NCBI GenBank assembly: GCA_003021655.1
Contig: PXRP01000028.1
Location: forward strand, 23,635 to 71,879
Source: Halobacteriales archaeon QS_4_69_31
Lineage (GTDB): Archaea; Halobacteriota; Halobacteria; Halobacteriales; Haloarculaceae
Direction of reading: 5' to 3'
DNA: 48,245 bases
The notes below the pieces were generated by a model that ran no database searches, was not told where the DNA came from, and saw only the letters and a program-made list of their open reading frames with translations. Made by a program: the position numbers and the translations under genes. Positions 32,777 through 43,209 of this stretch are shown here, in pieces. How positions within the stretch are numbered: position 1 is the first letter of the stretch; the number at the start of each line of letters is the position of its first letter.

Positions 32777-34339
32777 ATGAATACACAGGACAGACGCGCC
32801 ATATCACGTGAGTATTTCTCGAGGGAACGACTCGCAGAACACCACTTCCGCTCGTTCAACGCCTTCCTCGACCGGGGGATGCAGGAGGTCGTCGACGAGA
32901 AGGCGACCATCGACACGGACATCGGCGACAAGGAGGGCGAAGAGCCCGTCTACGTCGAACTCGGCGACGTCCGGGTCGTCACGCCGCGGGTCCGGGAGGC
33001 CGACGGCTCCGAGGAGCTGCTCTACCCCCAGGAGGCCCGCCTGCGCAACATCACCTACGCCGCGCCCGTCTTCATGGAGATGGCGATCATCAAGGGCGGC
33101 GAGGAGGAGGAAGAACGGGTGGTCGACCAGACCGAGACCAAGATCGGCCGCATGCCGGTCATGGTCGGCTCCGAGAAGTGTAACATCGCGGGCTTTTCCA
33201 GCGCGGAACTCATCGACATCGGGGAGGACCCCGCCGACCCCGGCGGCTACTTCATCGTCAACGGCTCCGAGCGGGTGCTGATGACCAGCGAGGACCTGGC
33301 GCCCAACAAGATCCTCGCCGAGACCGACACCAAGTACGGCGACACCATCGAGGTGGCCAAGACCTTCTCCCAGCGCCGTGGCTACCGCGCGCTGGTGCTG
33401 GTCGAACGCCAGCGCGACGGCCTGCTGGAAGTGTCGTTCCCCTCGGTCTCGGGGAGCATCAACTTCGTGACGCTGGTGCGGGCGCTCGGGCTGGAATCCG
33501 ACGAGGAGATCGTCCACCGCGTCTCCGAGGACCCCGAGATCGTGAAGTTCATGCTGGAGAACCTGGAGGCCGCGGACGTCCAGACCACCGAGGAGGCCAT
33601 CGAGACGCTGGGCCAGCGGGTCGCCTCCGGCCAGGGGAAAAACTACCAGCTCAAACGCGCCAACTACGTCATCGACCGGTATCTCCTCCCGCACCTCCAC
33701 GAGGACGGCGTCGAAGAGGAGGACGTCCGGATCAACAAGGCCTACTACCTCTGCCGGATGGCCGAGGCGTGTTTCGAACTGGCGCTGGACCGGCGCGAAC
33801 CCGACGACAAGGACCACTACGCCAACAAGCGCCTGAAGGTCAGCGGCGACCTCATGAAGGACCTGTTCCGGACGGCGCTGAACAAGCTGGCCCGCGACGT
33901 GAAATACCAGCTCGAACGGGCCAACATGCGCAACCGCCAGCTCTCCGTTTCGACGGTCGTCCGGTCGGACGTGCTGACCGAGCGGCTGGAACACCCCATC
34001 GCGACGGGCAACTGGGTGGGCGGCCGGTCGGGCGTCTCCCAGCTGGTCGACCGCACCGACTACATGGGCGTGCTCTCGCACCTGCGGCGGCTGCGCTCGC
34101 CGCTCAGCCGCTCGCAACCGCACTTCGAGGCGCGTGACCTGCACGCGACACAGTGGGGGCGTATCTGCCCCTCCGAGACGCCCGAGGGCCCGAACTGCGG
34201 GCTCGTCAAGAACTTCGCCCAGGCGATGGAGCTGTCACAGAACGTCGAGGACGAACAGGCACTCAAACAGGAACTGGCGGCGATGGGCGTCCAGGGCATC
34301 CCCGGGATCGAATCCATCGAGCAGCCGGCAGACGACTAA
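32777..34339 (+). CDS. rpoB2: DNA-directed RNA polymerase subunit B''
   Basis: This 520-residue protein is the N-terminal half of the beta/Rpb2 subunit, split from B' as in haloarchaea and methanogens. It carries the protrusion, lobe and fork regions: [47 protein letters not shown] and the [20 protein letters not shown] motif near the active site. The split ends after the fork region with an acidic tail. It is followed 2 bp later by rpoB1. Confidence 0.97.
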
Positions 34340-34341
34340 CA

Positions 34342-36168
34342 ATGAGCAAACAACGCGAAGCCAAAGTCTACGTCAACGGGAGCCTGGTCGGGACCCACCC
34401 GAGCCCGGACCAGCTAGCCGCACAGATCCGCCAGGCGCGACGCCGGGGGGAGGTCTCCGAGATGGTCAACGTCTCGGTCAAGGAACGCACCGGGGAGGTC
34501 ATCGTCAACGCCGACGCCGGCCGCGCCCGCCGTCCGCTGCTGGTCGTCGAGGACGGCAAACCCCTCATCGACGACGCCGAGATCGAGGCCGTCAAGGAGG
34601 GCGAGATCGCCTTCGAGGGCCTCGTCGACGCCGGCTACGTCGAGTTCATCGACGCCGAGGAGGAAGAGGACATCTACGTCGCCGTCGACGAGACCGAACT
34701 CACCCCCGACCACACCCACCTCGAGGTCGACCCGCAACTGATGTTCGGCATCGGGGCCGGGATGATCCCCTACCCCGAGCACAACGCCTCGCCCCGCATC
34801 ACGATGGGGTCGGGGATGATCAAACAGTCGCTGGGGCTGCCCAGCGCGAACTACCGGATCCGGCCCGACACGCGCCAGCACCTCCTGCATTACCCGCAGT
34901 TGTCGCTGGTCAAGACCCAGACGACCGAACAGATCGGCTACGACGAGCGCCCGGCCGCCCAGAACTTCGTCGTCGCGGTCATGTCCTACGAGGGGTTCAA
35001 CATTGAGGACGCGCTCGTGATGAACAAGGGCTCGGTCGACCGGGCGCTGGCCCGGTCGCACTTCTTCAGGACCTACGAGGGCGAGGAACGCCGCTATCCG
35101 GGCGGCCAGGAGGACCACTTCGAGATCCCCGACGAGGAGGTGCGGGGCGCCCGCGGCGAGGAGGCGTACACCCACCTCGACGAGGACGGCCTCGTCAACC
35201 CGGAGACGCCGGTCGGCGAGAACGACGTCCTGCTGGGGAAGACGTCGCCGCCCCGCTTCCTCGAAGAGCCCGACGACATGGGCGGGCTCAGTCCGCAGAA
35301 ACGCCGCGAGACCAGCGTCACGATGCGCTCGGGCGAGTCGGGCGTCGTCGACACCGTCACGCTCATGGAGGGCGAGGACGGGTCGAAGCTCTCGAAGGTC
35401 TCCGTGCGCGACGAGCGCATCCCCGAACTGGGCGACAAGTTCGCCTCCCGGCACGGACAGAAGGGCGTCGTCGGCCACATCGCCCCCCAGGAGGACATGC
35501 CATTCACCGAACAGGGCGTGGCGCCGGACCTCATCCTCAATCCCCACGCCCTCCCGTCGCGGATGACCGTCGGCCACATCCTGGAGATGATCGGCGGCAA
35601 GGTCGGCTCCCTGGAGGGCCGGCGCGTCGACGGCACCGCCTTCACCGGCGAGGGCGAGGACGATCTCCGGCAGTCGCTGGTCGACCACGGCTTCGACTCC
35701 AGCGGCAAGGAGGCGCTGTATTCGGGCGTGACCGGTGAGAAGATCGAGGCCGAGATCTTCGTCGGGACCATCTTCTACCAGAAACTGTACCACATGGTCT
35801 CGAACAAGATCCACGCCCGGTCGCGCGGCCCGGTGCAAGTGCTAACCCGCCAGCCCACGGAGGGGCGGGCCCGCGAGGGCGGCCTGCGCGTCGGCGAGAT
35901 GGAACGGGACGTCCTCATCGGCCACGGCGCGGCGATGGCGCTCAAAGAGCGCCTGCTCGACGAGTCCGACCGCGAGTTCATCAACGTCTGCGGGGAGTGT
36001 GGGATGACCGCCGTCGAGAACGTCGAGCAACGCCGGGTCTACTGTCCCAACTGCGACGAGGAAACCGAGATCCACGAGGTCGAGATGAGCTACGCCTTCA
36101 AACTCCTGCTCGACGAGATGAAAGCGCTGGGCATCGCGCCCCGCATCGAACTGGAGGACGCAGTCTAA
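34342..36168 (+). CDS. rpoB1: DNA-directed RNA polymerase subunit B'
   Basis: This 608-residue protein is the C-terminal half of the beta/Rpb2 subunit. It contains the catalytic [15 protein letters not shown] motif, [11 protein letters not shown], and a C-terminal zinc ribbon CGECG...CPNC (near 553-576). It helps bind nucleotides and holds the RNA-DNA hybrid together with A'. The ATG at 34342 starts [19 protein letters not shown], typical of the family. No intein is present here, unlike in the next two genes. Confidence 0.97.
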
Positions 36169-36169
36169 C

Positions 36170-39100
36170 ATGAGCGCACAGGGAACCCCACAGGAGATCG
36201 GTCAGATCAGCTTCGGGCTGATGGACCCCGAGGAGTACCGCGAGATGAGCGCCACGAAGGTCATCACGGCCGACACCTACGACGACGACGGCTTCCCCAT
36301 CGACATGGGGCTGATGGACCCGCGCCTGGGGGTCATCGACCCCGGGCTGGAGTGTAAGACCTGCGGGAAACACTCCGGGTCGTGTAACGGCCACTTCGGC
36401 CACATCGAACTGGCCGCGCCGGTCATCCACGTCGGCTTCGCGCGGCTCATCCGCCGGCTGCTGCGCGGGACCTGCCGGGAGTGTTCGCGGCTGACCCCCG
36501 TCGACGGCCGCCGCGTCGCCGACGCCGAACAGGCCGCCGAGGAGCGCAAACGCGAGTACCGCGAGCAGCTCCGGCGCACGAAGGAACTCGGCAAAGACCC
36601 CAGCGACGTGCTCAAGTCGGCCATCCGCGAGTGCCGGAAAGTCGACTACTGCCCGTACTGTGGCGCCAAGCAGTTCGACATCAAACACGAGAAACCCACC
36701 ACGTACTACGAGATCATCGAGGTGCCCCACTCGGAGCTGTCCAAGCGGCTCGAACGCGCGATGGACCCCGAGGACGGCGCGCCGGTCACCCCGGAGGACA
36801 TCGCCGACGAACTCGAGGACAGCGACTTCGAGCCCGGGCGCATCCGCGAGTTGCTCTCGGGCACCTACCGCCCCGACCGCAACGACATCGACCGGCTGAA
36901 GAACCTCGGCCGGGCGCTGGGCCGGCTCAACGACCTCGAGGAGGTCGACCCGAGCATCGACTCCTCGGCGGATTATTTCGTCCAGGAGGACATGGACAAG
37001 CTGATGCCCTCGGACACCCGCGACTGGTTCGAGGCCATCCCCGACGAGGACATCGAGGCCATCGGCATCAACCCCGACCGGTCCCGGCCGGAGTGGATGG
37101 TCCTCACGGTCCTGCCGGTGCCGCCGGTGACCGCTCGGCCCTCGATCACGCTGGACAACGGCCAGCGCTCCGAGGACGACCTTACGCACAAGCTCGTCGA
37201 CATCATCCGCATCAATCAGCGGTTCATGGAAAACCGCGAGGCCGGCGCCCCGCAACTCATCATCGAGGACCTCTGGGAACTGCTCCAGTACCACGTCACC
37301 ACCTTCATGGACAACGAGATCAGCGGGACGCCGCCGGCTCGCCACCGCTCCGGGCGGCCGCTGAAGACCCTCTCGCAGCGCCTGAAGGGCAAGGAGGGCC
37401 GGTTCCGCGGCTCGCTGTCCGGGAAACGGGTCAACTTCTCGGCCCGGACCGTGATCTCGCCGGACCCCACCCTCTCGCTCAACGAGGTCGGCGTCCCGGA
37501 CCGGGTCGCCAGCGAGATGACCCAGACGATGAACGTGAACGAGCGCAACCTCGACGAGGCCCGCCGGTACGTCGCCAACGGGCCCGAGCGACACCCGGGC
37601 GCGAACTACGTCCGCCGCCACGACGGCCGCCGGCTCAAGGTGACCGAGAAAAACTGCGAGGAACTCGCCGAGAAGGTCGAACCCGGCTGGGAAGTGTCGC
37701 GGCACCTCATCGACGGCGACATCGTGATCTTCAACCGCCAGCCGTCGCTGCACCGGATGTCGATCATGGCCCACGAGGTCGTCGTGATGCCGTACAAGAC
37801 CTTCCGGCTCAATACGACCGTGTGTGTCGTTGGTGACACGACAGTCGACTGCGGTGGATACGAGCGCCGGATCGACGCTATCGAGGACAACTGGGACGAC
37901 GAGGTCGTCACGACATACGACCCCGACGACCGCGAGACCCGTGAGACGGACCTGCAGGACTTCTGGTCGCTGCTGCCGTCGGAATACGGTGCGACGGTCC
38001 ATCGCGTCGAGACGGAGTTCGGTGAAATTGTCGCGACATCCGACCACCCCCTGGAGACGCCGGACGGGGCCGTCCCGGTCGAAGACCTCGAACCGGGCGA
38101 CGAGTTGTTCCGTCGTCCGGTCGACCTACCCGAGTTCGAACCGGACGACGACGAACAGATCGCAGTGACAGAAGACGATGTCCGCGAGGCCGCACCCGAG
38201 GCAACCTACGTCGGGCACATGCTTCGGACGCTCGACGGACTGGTACCCTTCGACGCACACTCGCGTGAGGGTGTCGCCGTCGCCAGACTCGTCGGTCACC
38301 TCTTCGGTGACGGGACGCTGGACTTACACGGTCAGACGGGGCGCCTGTTTTTCAGAGCGTCTCGAGATGACCTCCAGGCGGTCCAGAACGACCTCGAACG
38401 GCTTGGATTCGATCCGGAGGAGCCGGTGCTGAAAGAGAACACAGGACAGATCGTCGCTGCAGACGGTGGGACGAAGCATGTCGAGGGAAGCGGCTGGTCG
38501 ATGAAAGTCGGGAGCAAACCCCTGGCTTCGTTCATGGCGGCTGCGGGCGTTCCCGCCGGCGACAAGGCACAGTCCGACGCGACGGTGCCCGAGTGGATCA
38601 GGAATGGCCCGAGGGCGGTCAAGCGTGCGTTCCTGAGTAGCTACTTCGGAGCGGAACTGAGCACTCCGTCCTACCGCGGTCATAAGCTGTTCCGACAGCC
38701 CGTGTTCAAGCTATCGCGGACCGAAGATGTCGTCGACGCTGGAAAACAGTTCGTCGAACAGATCGACGCAATACTCGAGGAATTCGGAACCGGTATCTCA
38801 AACGTTCGCGTCCGACCGAGTAATCGACGACAGGACGGGTCGGTCTCACAGCAGATCGTCGCCGAGTTAGAAGCCAGTCACGAGGCAGTCGAAGCGCTGT
38901 TCGGCCGGATCGGCTACACCTACAACTCCGACGCCGAAGCAGAGGCACGGCTGGCGTACGGATACCTCTCGGACAAACCCCACGGCGCGTTCGCAATCGA
39001 ACAGTTTCCGGATTACGACGACTGGAAAGAGGAGCGAGTCGTGAATGAGAACGAGGGTATAATATCCGATAGTATAAAAGAAATAGAAAGAGCCGAAAAT

Positions 39101-40534
39101 CAGAGAGTATACGACATTACAACCGAAGATAAAGCACACAAATTCATCGCGAATGAATTAGTGTCAAATAATTGTCCTCCATACAACGCGGACTTCGACG
39201 GCGACGAGATGAACATGCACGCCCTCCAGAACGAGGAGGCCCGCGCGGAGGCCCGCGTGCTGATGCGGGTCCAGGAACAGATGCTCAGCCCGAAGATGGG
39301 CGAGAACATCATCGGCGCGATCCAGGACCACGTCTCGGGGACGTACCTCCTGACCCACACGAACCCCCGGTTCAACGAGACCCAGGCGCTGGACCTGCTC
39401 CGTGCGACCCGGATCGACGAGTTGCCCGAGGCCGACGGGACCGAAGACGGCGGGGTCTACTGGACCGGGCGGACGCTGTTCTCGGAGCTGTTGCCCGACG
39501 ACCTCGACCTGGCGTTTACCTCCTCGGCGGGCGACACGGTCGTCATCGAGGACGGCCAGATGCGCGAGGGCACCATCGACGAGGACGCCGTCGGCGCGTT
39601 CGGCGGCGAGGTCGTCGACACCATCGCCAAGGAGTACTCGAAGACGCGGGCGCGCATCTTCATCAACGAGGTGGCTGCGCTGGCGACCCGCTCTATCATG
39701 CACTTCGGGTTCTCGATCGGGATCGACGACGAGTCGATAGACCCCGAGGCCGAAGAGCGCATCGATGAGGCCATCGACAACGCCTACGAGCGCGTCGGGG
39801 AACTCATCGAGACCTACGAGGCGGGCGAACTCGAACCGCTGCCGGGCCGGCCGGTCGACGAGACACTGGAGATGAAGGTCATGTCGACGCTCAGCAAGGC
39901 CCGGGACACCGCCGGCGACATCGCCGAGGACCACTTCGCCGAGGACAACCCCGCGGTCATCATGGCCGATTCCGGCGCCCGCGGGTCGATGCTGAACCTC
40001 ACGCAGATGGCCGGCTGTGTCGGCCAGCAGGCGGTCCGGGGCGAGCGCATCAACCGCGGCTACGAGGACCGCACGCTCAGTCACTTCAAGCCCCACGACC
40101 TCTCCCCGGAGGCGCGTGGCTTCGTGGAACACTCCTACCGCGGCGGACTCGAACCCAAGGAGTTTTTCTTCCACGCGATGGGCGGCCGCGAAGGGCTGGT
40201 CGACACGGCGGTGCGGACCTCGAAGTCGGGGTACCTGCAGCGCCGCCTCATCAACGCCCTCTCGGAACTGGAGACCCAGTACGACGGCACCGTCCGGGAC
40301 ACCTCGGACACGGTCGTCCAGTTCGAGTTCGGCGAGGACGGCACCTCACCGGTCCAGGTCTCCTCGGCCGAGGAGGGCCAGACCGTCGACGTCGAGTCGA
40401 TCACCGAACGCGTCCTCGACTCCGAGTTCGACTCCGAGGCCGAACGCGAGCGGTTCCTCGGCGAACGGCCCGAGCCGACGAACCTCTCCGAGCACGCCGA
40501 CGACTGGTGGATGGAAGCGGCGGGGGGTGACTGA
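36170..40534 (+). CDS. rpoA1: DNA-directed RNA polymerase subunit A' with intein
   Basis: This 1454-residue precursor is the N-terminal part of the beta'/Rpb1 subunit and gives a mature A' of about 1004 residues after splicing. Zinc-binding [17 protein letters not shown] (61-79), CRECSRL, and CPYCGAK (near 161) lie in the clamp. [13 protein letters not shown] precedes the insertion. The intein (residues 552-1001) separates FRLNTTV from [16 protein letters not shown]. The three aspartates of NADFDGD (1008, 1010, 1012 in precursor numbering) hold the catalytic Mg2+, so no active enzyme can form until the intein is removed. The gene ends 2 bp before rpoA2. Confidence 0.97.
37823..39172 (+). mobile_element. 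Intein in RNA polymerase A' (LAGLIDADG homing endonuclease)
   Basis: This in-frame insert encodes 450 residues. Block A starts with Cys1 ([12 protein letters not shown]). Block B has T72xxH75 in [13 protein letters not shown]. The endonuclease motifs are LVGHLFGDG (156-164) and FLSSYFGAE (270-278). Block F is [14 protein letters not shown] (from 428), and the end is LVSNN followed by C+1 of the extein. The penultimate residue is Asn, not the usual His. Bases 39041-39172 are only about one-third G+C (45 of 132 by hand count) and include four ATA and two AGA codons, unlike the rest of the window. Confidence 0.95.
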
Positions 40535-40536
40535 CC

Positions 40537-43209
40537 GTGGAGGTCGACGAGGACGTCAGAGCGCTGGTCGAGGACACTACCCTCCCGCGCCGTCTCAAGG
40601 AGGACGTCTACGAGGAGGTCGCCGCCCGCGGGGACCTCTCGCTCGAAGCAGTCGACGAGGTCGTCCAGGCCGTCGAGAGCCAGTACCTCGACACGCGCGT
40701 GGACCCGCTGGACCCGGTCGGGACCGTCAGCGCACAGTCCATCGGGGAACCGGGAACGCAGATGAGCGTCCCCGCCGAAGAGCGGGTCATCGTGCGTCGA
40801 AACGGCGAGACGGACGTGACCGAAATCGGCGGGCTCGTCGACGGACTCGCGGCCGTCCGGGAGACCCGTTCCGTCGACGGCCACGAGGTCGTCACGGCGC
40901 CGGAGAACATGGAGGTGCTCTCGCTGCGGGCCGACGAACGAGTCGCGTGGAAGCCACTCGACGAGGTCAGCCGCCACGAGGCACCGCCGGAACTGCTCCG
41001 GTTCGAACTCGAATCCGGGCGGGACGTTCGGGCGACGAAATCTCACTCGTTTGTCACGCGACGGGACAACGAGGTCGTTCCAGTCCCGGGGGAGGAGTTG
41101 ACTGGCGGCGACTGGCTCCCGGTCGTTCGCTCGTTCGATGGGAACGGCCCCGGGACGGTCAACCTCCGCGAGTATCTGGATAGCGACGACTACTGGTTCA
41201 CCTCCACGCTGACCGACGGCGGTGTCGCGGCCGACAGTCCGGCTGGCAAAGACCAGACCCGGAACAAGCGCGAGGCGCTCGCGGCCGGCGAACTCGACGA
41301 AGGGGCCGTCTATCCCGTCCAGGGGACGGTCGGCCTGCCCGAGGAGTTCCCGCTCGACGGGACGACCGGATTCTTCCTCGGCGCGTTCCTCTCGGAGGGG
41401 AACGCCACGGACGACTACGTCTCGATTTCGAATGTCGACGCTGACTTCCAGCACTGTGTGCGCTCCGTTGCAGAGCGGTTCGGTCTCTCGGTCAGCGAGT
41501 ACGACAACGAGAGCGGATTCGGGACGGGACACGGCCTTCGGGTCAACGGCACGGTCCTCGCGGACTTCGTTCGGACCGTCTGCTATGCCGACGGTGAGAA
41601 AGCCGTTCCCGGCTTCGCCTTCGGAGCGCCCCGGACGTTCGTTCGAGCGCTGCTCGCGGGGTATTTCAGCGGAAATGGCACCGTCGCCGACCGCGCCGTT
41701 CGTGCGAGTTCCACGTCACGCCGACTTCTCGAAGGGATCGCTCTCCTCCTCGGTCGATTCGACATCTACGGTCGGTTCGGCAGCGGGGACGGTTCGACGA
41801 CACTCCGGATCCCGTCGAAGTACGTCCCCGCGTTCGCGGAGCGGATCGGCCTCGTCGGCGACCGCGGCGACCGACTCGATGCAGCTGCCTCGGAGATCGA
41901 CCCGAACGGCCCGGACGCGACGGACCAGATCCCGAACGTCGGCGACGCGCTCGAGACTGTGGCGGCGGCGGCAGACATGCCATCGCGTCAGGTCCACAGC
42001 GCGCACGAACGACAGCGGATCGGACGCAACCGCCTCTCGGAGATCGTTGCCAACACCGCGGAATCGACCGCGGACGAACCGGCGGCGCTTGCGGATCTCG
42101 AACGGGCCGTCGAGAGTGACGTGGTCTGGGAGCGTATCGAGTCGGTCGAGACGGTCACGCCGGACCACGAGTACGTCTACGACTTCTCCGTCGGGGGACT
42201 GGAGACGTTCACCACGGCCCAGGGCGTCGTCACCCACAACACGATGAACACCTTCCACTACGCGGGCGTCGCGGAGATCGACGTCACGCAGGGGTTGCCG
42301 CGGCTCATCGAACTGGTCGACGCCCGGAAGGAGCCGGACACGCCGACGATGTCGATCCGGCTCGACGAGGCGTACGCGACCGACCGCGAGAAGGCCCACG
42401 AGGTCGTCTGGCAGATCGAGTCGACGAAGATCCTCCAGCTCGGGGACGTCTCGACGAACGTCGCGGACATGCTCGTCCAGATCGACCTCAACGAGGAGAC
42501 GCTGCGCGAGCGGTGGCCGACCGCCGACAGCCTAGACGAGGTCGTCGAGGACATCGCGACGACCATCGAGTCGTCGCTGGGCGTCGACGTGAGCACGCCC
42601 GCGCGGACGGTCGTCCAGTTCGGTCCGGAGGAGCCCAGCTACCGCGACCTGCTCCAGCTCGTCGAGGAGCTGCGCGACATCGTCTTCAAGGGCATCGAAG
42701 ACGTCTCCCGCGTGGTCATCCGGAAAGAGGAGACCGAGCGCGGCGAGGAGTTCGAGCTCTACACGGAGGGGTCGGCGCTGGGCGACGTCCTCGGCATCGA
42801 GGGGGTCGACGCCTCGCGGACGACCTGCAACGACATCCACGAGATCTACCGCAACCTCGGCATCGAGGCGGCCCGCGAGGCCATCATCGACGAGATGTAC
42901 CTGACCCTCGAAGAGCAGGGGCTCGACGAGGTGAACATCCGCCACCTGATGCTGGTCGCGGACATCATGACCAACCGCGGGACGATCCAGTCGATCGGCC
43001 GCCACGGCATCTCGGGCAACAAGGAGTCGGTGCTGGCGCGGGCGGCCTTCGAGGTGACGGTCAACCACCTGCTCGACGCCGCCATCCACGGCGAGGTCGA
43101 CGACCTCAACGGCGTCACGGAGAACGTCATCGTCGGCAAGCCGATCAAGCTCGGTACCGGGGACGTCAACCTCCGCATGAACGCCGGGGGCAGCGGCAGC
43201 GCGGACTAG
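40537..43209 (+). CDS. rpoA2: DNA-directed RNA polymerase subunit A'' with intein
   Basis: This 890-residue precursor starts with GTG and gives a mature A'' of about 398 residues. It is the C-terminal part of beta'/Rpb1. The intein (residues 77-568) is inserted within SIGEPGTQM / [10 protein letters not shown], a segment of the bridge helix/trigger loop region that moves in each nucleotide addition. The C-extein includes [24 protein letters not shown] and a C-terminal [19 protein letters not shown] motif. It is in the same operon as A', B', B'' and H. Confidence 0.97.
40765..42240 (+). mobile_element. Intein in RNA polymerase A'' (LAGLIDADG homing endonuclease)
   Basis: This in-frame insert encodes 492 residues. 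It begins with Ser1 ([16 protein letters not shown]). Block B is T91KSH94. Endonuclease motifs are [11 protein letters not shown] (203-213) and [10 protein letters not shown] (296-305). Block F is [13 protein letters not shown], and the end is VVTHN followed by Thr+1. The terminal His-Asn is canonical. The composition is similar to the host genes. Both endonuclease motifs look intact, although the catalytic acid in the first is Glu and the second has Asn in place of Asp. Those substitutions may weaken cutting. Confidence 0.95.

Follow-up and report, generated by a model that had tools for sequence, protein, structure and literature searches.

AT-rich 3' end of short-type inteins in the haloarchaeal RNA polymerase A' gene and its likely transfer with the adjoining 3' flank

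The A' intein and its features

The window is the whole stretch of DNA that was analysed, 48,245 nucleotides from Halobacteriales archaeon QS_4_69_31, and it carries the gene for RNA polymerase subunit A' interrupted by an intein. The features of this gene are as follows.

36170 to 40534, plus strand: rpoA', encoding RNA polymerase subunit A', 1454 codons with the intein included (open frame; NCBIfam NF006336 and TIGR02390)
37823 to 39172, plus strand: A' intein of the short type, 450 codons and amino acids, following the residues NTTV (translation and alignment with long-type relatives)
38294 to 38320, plus strand: first LAGLIDADG-like motif, GHLFGDGTL, with acidic residue D163 (by eye; D163 invariant in a six-row alignment)
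38630 to 38659, plus strand: second LAGLIDADG-like motif, with acidic residue E278, which is Asp in P0009 and L114 (sequence, by eye)
38981 to 39001, plus strand: site at which 44 residues are absent compared with the long type (alignment of short and long inteins)

The frame that holds the intein is uninterrupted through A', and 94 intein-free orthologous alleles were read at the same site. The intein has C1, T72-S-D-H75, N450 and a Cys codon at 39173, which correspond to Cys1, the TxxH of block B, the terminal Asn and the +1 Cys. The penultimate His of block G is absent, being Asn in the short type and Ser in the haloarchaeal long type; a residue other than His at this position is tolerated in some working inteins. 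The score against Pfam Intein_splicing (PF14890) was 34.2 bits, which is just below the cut-off of 35.8, and the Pfam LAGLIDADG search of the intein gave no match at E<=0.01, both motifs being assigned by eye. The A' intein is predicted to be self-splicing and to have a homing endonuclease. In the available part of a halobacterial intein survey, mini-inteins are those that have lost the homing endonuclease region, with a length gap of more than 100 amino acids (PMC4071816); the A' intein is not one of these because only 44 residues are absent and both LAGLIDADG-like motifs are retained. The same survey, as far as available, lists an rpolA allele in the RNA polymerase A subunit and does not specify A' or A'', so that its identity with the A' site of the window is a candidate one (PMC4071816). 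The rpoA'' gene of the same genome (40537 to 43209 of the window) has its own intein of about 490 amino acids with a LAGLIDADG_3 match and without an AT-rich end.

Extent and strength of the AT-rich end

39041 to 39172, plus strand: AT-rich 3' end as first described, the last 44 codons of the intein, GC 0.34 and GC3 0.34
39056 to 39181, plus strand: best-fitting low-GC3 block, which begins at intein codon 412 and ends with extein codon 3 (three-segment fit)
39137 to 39172, plus strand: last 12 codons, AT-rich in all four short lineages read
39164 to 39180, plus strand: TCAAATAATTGTCCTCC, which spans the junction and is shared unchanged by three of the four short lineages

The original prediction held that the last 132 bp of the intein are about 34% GC, far below the exteins and the rest of the intein, and this was confirmed. 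When the whole 48 kb was cut into 16,038 windows of 132 bp (step 3), the 40 with the lowest GC all overlapped the AT-rich tail, and in the GC profile from 34000 to 42000 the windows off the low-GC block were all at 0.55 or above. The GC3 elsewhere was 0.60 to 0.86 in bins of the intein body and about 0.94 in the exteins. The predicted enrichment of ATA and AGA was also found: these codons occur four times and twice, respectively, in the 44 codons of the tail and once and twice in the 2,079 codons of the neighbouring frames (34153 to 36165 and the A' and A'' exteins). When the same amino acids were drawn from the codons of the intein's own body, a GC3 as low as that of the tail was reached in 0 of 20,000 draws. 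The claim that the shift ends exactly at the splice junction did not hold. The GC3 was 0.73 before the fitted block, 0.26 inside it and 0.97 after it, and because the fit ends at extein codon 3 the block crosses the junction by 9 bp, TGT CCT CCA. This claim is contradicted as well by the codons TGT CCT CC[A/G] past the junction, which were seen in none of the 94 empty alleles.

Short and long types of the A' intein

Relatives were sought by intein-protein searches of genomes, and the figures given here hold among the matches listed per genome. Inteins at the A' site were found in at least 5 of 391 genomes of the class sample, at least 7 of 146 of the host family, at least 2 of 170 of the G318 family, at least 1 of 4 of the G383 family and, at E<=1e-45, at least 5 of 392 of the phylum sample; among the matches listed there was none in the 18, 26 and 125 genomes of three other families. 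In the class sample 67 of 391 genomes had any match at E<=0.001, and 21 of the 25 lower-scoring loci fetched there were delimitable RtcB inteins. A scan of genome contigs gave a single record, QH_10_67_22 (L004), whose GC3 bins and junction sequence are those of L036. The protein search gave 29 proteins (P0004 to P0032) with an intein at the A' site out of 48 matches listed.

These inteins fall into two size types, a short one of 450 to 452 amino acids and a long one of 479 to 495. The short type, which forms a single clade (support 100/99), is without the 44 residues that the long type has just upstream of the tail, and this loss is likely derived because the outgroups P0029 and P0031 both retain that stretch. 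Short-type DNA was read from 6 genomes, representing 4 lineages of shared ancestry in 2 host families; these genomes are incomplete (64 to 88%) and probably metagenome-assembled, and short-type P0006 to P0010 are known as protein only and stand outside the DNA-based counts. The long-type A' inteins (P0011 to P0027, L006, L007, L039 and the partial L008; 494 to 495 amino acids) share the insertion site of the window and are 62 to 67% identical to its intein over residues 1 to 380, L008 being outside that alignment. Unlike the short type they keep the 44 residues, end in GSN rather than xNN and lack the AT-rich 44-codon tail. In genus g9 close relatives have either the short type (L037, L038) or the long type (L007) at this one site, which indicates turnover at this site within one genus.

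The GC3 of the last 44 codons was 0.34 in L001, 0.30 in L036, 0.48 in L005 and 0.34 in both L037 and L038, all of the short type, and 0.68, 0.70, 0.77 and 0.84 in the long-type loci L006, L007, L039 and L008, respectively. Resampling of the same amino acids gave 0 of 20,000 in each of five short loci (L114 being outside this set) and P values from 0.09 to 0.73, none significant, in the four long loci. The hosts of the short type are nevertheless GC-rich, with a 3' extein GC3 of 0.905 to 0.94 in five loci and 0.76 over 49 codons in L114. AT-rich ends in GC-rich hosts had been named as evidence against a recent origin, and they were found in three further genera, of which one belongs to a different family. 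In that other-family relative, L114, the GC3 was 0.66 over 44 codons and only the last 12 codons were AT-rich (2 of 12 GC-ending), and its 3' flank is GC-rich (TGC CCC CCC). The GC3 of the last 12 codons in the four short lineages was 0.42, 0.50, 0.25 and 0.17. Over the last six codons the mean GC3 was 0.12 for the short type and 0.46 for the long type (four lineages each), and 0.83 for 21 RtcB inteins; a dip at the end was seen in none of these 21 delimited RtcB inteins. They and the A'' intein of the window lead us to reject the AT-rich end as a general trait of inteins. The AT-rich tail is thus mainly a trait of the short subtype. It is not strictly so since three of the four long-type loci also dip, to a GC3 of 0.33, in the last six codons, and A' inteins at large may have a fainter dip in their final codons.

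Trees and age of the tail

Trees were built from residues 1 to 379 (body) and from residues 399 to 450 (tail); the latter has 52 columns and many unresolved forks. The short clade was supported at 100/99 in the body tree and 94/93 in the tail tree, and in both the window joined P0004 and P0005 and then P0006 and L005. Grouping of the whole intein with one clade in such split trees had been named as evidence against the mosaic, and the window fell in the short clade both times, beside P0006 and L005; we saw no conflict of the kind that marks a mosaic intein, the tail tree being weakly resolved inside the short clade. A protein search with residues 946 to 1005 alone gave three matches, P0004, P0005 and P0010, among nine candidates. 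Among L001, L005 and L037, residues in codons 407 to 435 were shared at 41 to 52%, and the identical codon was used at 21 to 42% of these. This is no better than in the body, where the share of identical codons was 44 to 53%, and yet the region is AT-rich in all three lineages. In the last 15 codons the identical codon was used at 75 to 89% of the shared residues. The AT-rich end is therefore likely old, and it is not a patch that this genome alone acquired recently. The idea of a recent mosaic made by replacement of the tail fails because both of the results set beforehand as counting against it, agreement of the split trees and an AT-rich end in GC-rich relatives, were obtained.

The 3' flank of occupied and empty alleles

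39173 to 39246, plus strand: 74 bp of 3' extein flank identical to that of G444, a putative co-conversion tract
Empty-type site: TGTCCGCCGTACAAC
Window-type flank: TGTCCTCCATACAAC

The flank sample of the host family comprised 70 alleles read of 136 matches (30 loci and 40 chosen stretches); L051 repeats G444 and was excluded from the flank counts. Among the 63 empty alleles of this family, 53 have TGY CCG CCG after the insertion site and none has TGT CCT CC[A/G], which follows the junction in all five short carriers of the family and overall in three of the four short lineages. When 31 empty alleles of f4 and f11 hosts were added, CCG CCG was present in 79 of 94. The two Pro codons past the insertion site (39176 to 39181 of the window) are thus silently conserved as CCG CCG in empty alleles; Pro codons elsewhere in the same exteins are CCG at 49% and CCC at 42%. 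Among eight haloarchaeal carrier lineages, short and long, CCG CCG was kept in one and the others depart from it in several ways (Fisher P = 6e-5 for empties against carriers, the lineages not being fully independent). Ala replaces the first Pro in some occupied alleles and in one empty allele (L039, L082, P0015 and P0018 to P0020), and a further empty allele, L141, has Thr there.

Pairs of related alleles allowed the flank to be compared base by base. The 3' extein of the occupied G310 differs from that of its empty kin G438 at 28 of 1200 bp, and 7 of these differences are within the first 24 bp; on the left, of 28 readable bases just the last differs. The A' gene of G310 (L005) has a gap and a frame change shortly upstream of the intein, which is probably a fault of the assembly. 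The inteins of the window genome (G000) and its sister G444 differ at 16 of 450 codons and the first 74 bp of their 3' flanks are identical, whereas the opening 1200 bp of the 3' extein show 152 differences and the 5' flanks are already unlike at their first base. G428 and G382 are close kin, with extein codons 11 to 95 97.6% identical, that carry a short and a long intein, respectively, and the first 77 bp of their flanks are the same save for positions +6 and +12. In G310 the flank, TGT CCT CCA TAT AAT GCG GAC TTT, resembles that of the low-GC hosts G014 and G054 (3' extein GC3 of 0.41 and 0.51), both of which have CCG at +2. The best reading of these comparisons is that the right flank of carriers was co-converted with the intein, on the 3' side. 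Homing would be seen here indirectly, through the footprints of transfer with co-conversion, and cleavage by the endonuclease is predicted. Homing repair had been proposed earlier, and what survives of it is the co-converted right flank and not a recent replacement of one end of the intein.

Proposed explanation and its rivals

A probable explanation, to which we give a probability of about 60%, is that the AT-rich 3' end of the short type and the opening codons of the 3' extein form one old block and move together, copied by the action of the predicted homing endonuclease. The endonuclease would cut the empty site, and repair would copy the intein, usually extending over the opening codons on its right, if not further. 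The AT-leaning end and flank of a founder, which presumably lived in an AT-leaning host, would thereby be handed on like a fossil with each transfer. Some constraint would also keep the last dozen codons AT-rich; we infer this because the silent sites just upstream look saturated and because L114 has lost the AT bias except there. Candidates for this constraint are pausing at rare codons, conversion by a rival endonuclease and protection of the target site. What runs counter to one old block is L114, which has no AT-rich flank and only 12 AT-rich codons, and an AT-leaning founder alone leaves unexplained the AT-rich silent sites in codons 407 to 435 and the body GC3 of about 0.7. Of the low-GC donor proposed earlier, an AT-leaning source survives in that the flank of G310 is like that of low-GC halophiles; the donor itself was not found, and among the genomes searched none of low GC was found to carry a short-type A' intein. 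P0029, from archaeon SCG-AAA382B04, which we take to be Methanonatronarchaeia-like, was rejected as donor since it carries the long type, as was the low-GC locus L040, which is of the long type with the flank TGT CCG CCA. A viral source was also rejected; no relative was confirmed in IMG/VR by protein and there was no match to the junction pattern.

That a low-GC donor recently replaced only the 3' end, by recombination or one-sided homing repair, and so made a mosaic intein would agree with the abrupt change of GC3 that the window shows at codon 412 and with the flank of G310. It is nevertheless very unlikely, considering that the AT-rich end is also present in L036, L005, L037 and L038 and, shortened, in L114, that the body and tail trees are congruent and that the silent sites of codons 407 to 435 have diverged between lineages at least as much as those of the body. 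Ordinary relaxed codon bias of a selfish element, the tail having neither history nor function, is scarcely credible: the intein bodies do have a GC3 of about 0.7, below most of the surrounding exteins, but the tail departs from the codons of its own body in all five short loci resampled, and a departure of such strength is absent in long-type and RtcB inteins.

Conversion anchored at the 3' side could also have recurred, if a rival A' endonuclease cuts occupied alleles at their right junction and the break is then repaired with the 3' end of the rival. This presumes an intact right half-site in the occupied allele, and it predicts repeated tails of varied length that end just past the junction. 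The left edges do vary (codon 412 or 405, 361 or 369, 320 and, by eye, about 441 in L114), the right edge lies 0 to 8 codons past the junction, P0010 is 93% identical to the window in its last 15 residues but 69% in its body, and G428 and G382 have short and long inteins at one site. We consider it unlikely all the same, because the body and tail trees show no supported conflict inside the short clade, the intein end is conserved in the long type too and the cutting of occupied alleles is putative. A doubtful alternative to the old block is that selection favours AT-rich DNA or rare codons where the A' intein ends, for example so that a pausing ribosome gives the intein time to fold ahead of the C-extein. 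It would fit the low number of GC-ending codons among the last six, which is 3 of 24 in four short lineages and 11 of 24 in four long ones as against the mean GC3 of 0.83 in RtcB inteins (n=21), and also the use of differing AT-rich codons for differing residues in different lineages (TTA GTG, ATA ATA, ATT CTT). However, the RtcB inteins and the A'' intein of the window are without such an end, and therefore inteins have no general need of it. An equally doubtful idea is that the intein carries its own recoded flank, with which it would silently overwrite the right half of the homing site as it spreads and hide occupied alleles from its own or rival endonucleases; the CCG CCG kept in most empty alleles and the varied departures from it in carriers would speak for this. 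If it is true, the AT-rich end and flank would together be nature's equivalent of the recoded flank that engineered gene drives carry.

Comparison with known systems

In the available part of the report on the angiosperm mitochondrial cox1 homing intron, a short 3' co-conversion tract with synonymous third-position changes is described, which marks carriers and is inherited through successive transfers, with no 5' tract recognised (PMC3192709). The cox1 intron, as described there, is a mobile endonuclease-bearing element with a silent 3' tract, as is predicted for the A' intein; it differs in that it is a group I intron of plant mitochondria, whereas the A' element is an intein of haloarchaea whose marked stretch extends over the element's own end as well. 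For haloarchaeal MCM inteins, which are homing inteins, co-conversion of codons beside the insertion site was inferred, and the available part of that account does not mention a compositional tail (PMC10643990). According to the same part, the co-converted codon of MCM-d is needed for splicing (Pro to Ser), whereas the changes in the A' flank are silent (PMC10643990). It is because of the likeness to cox1 and MCM, as these sources present them in part, that the AT-rich end and the TGT CCT flank are read here as one block. A literature search of incomplete coverage, and thus a weak negative, gave among the titles listed no paper on an AT-rich intein end or recoded intein flanks.

A 3'-sided silent co-conversion tract together with an AT-rich intein end would mark visibly where inteins have homed from one haloarchaeal genus to another, and what looked like a one-off oddity becomes a trait of a subtype, traceable in metagenomes. 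The close pair of an empty and an occupied allele would let a single homing event be read base by base. This leads to the question whether the silent changes shield occupied alleles from cutting.

Two observations were made on single assemblies. The metagenome protein P0004 is a hybrid A': up to some 19 residues ahead of the insertion site it is f11-like, with an N-extein 90% identical to that of P0009, whose hosts are presumably Halorutilus-like, and then come the intein of the window (448 of 450 residues) and a window-like C-extein. It reflects either a long 3' co-conversion or a chimeric contig, and because the latter is possible it was set aside as evidence of transfer. The G797 assembly (L148/L153) breaks at the 3' splice junction, one contig ending 49 codons past the junction and a second one starting at the third extein codon, and this break may come from a mixture of occupied and empty strains.
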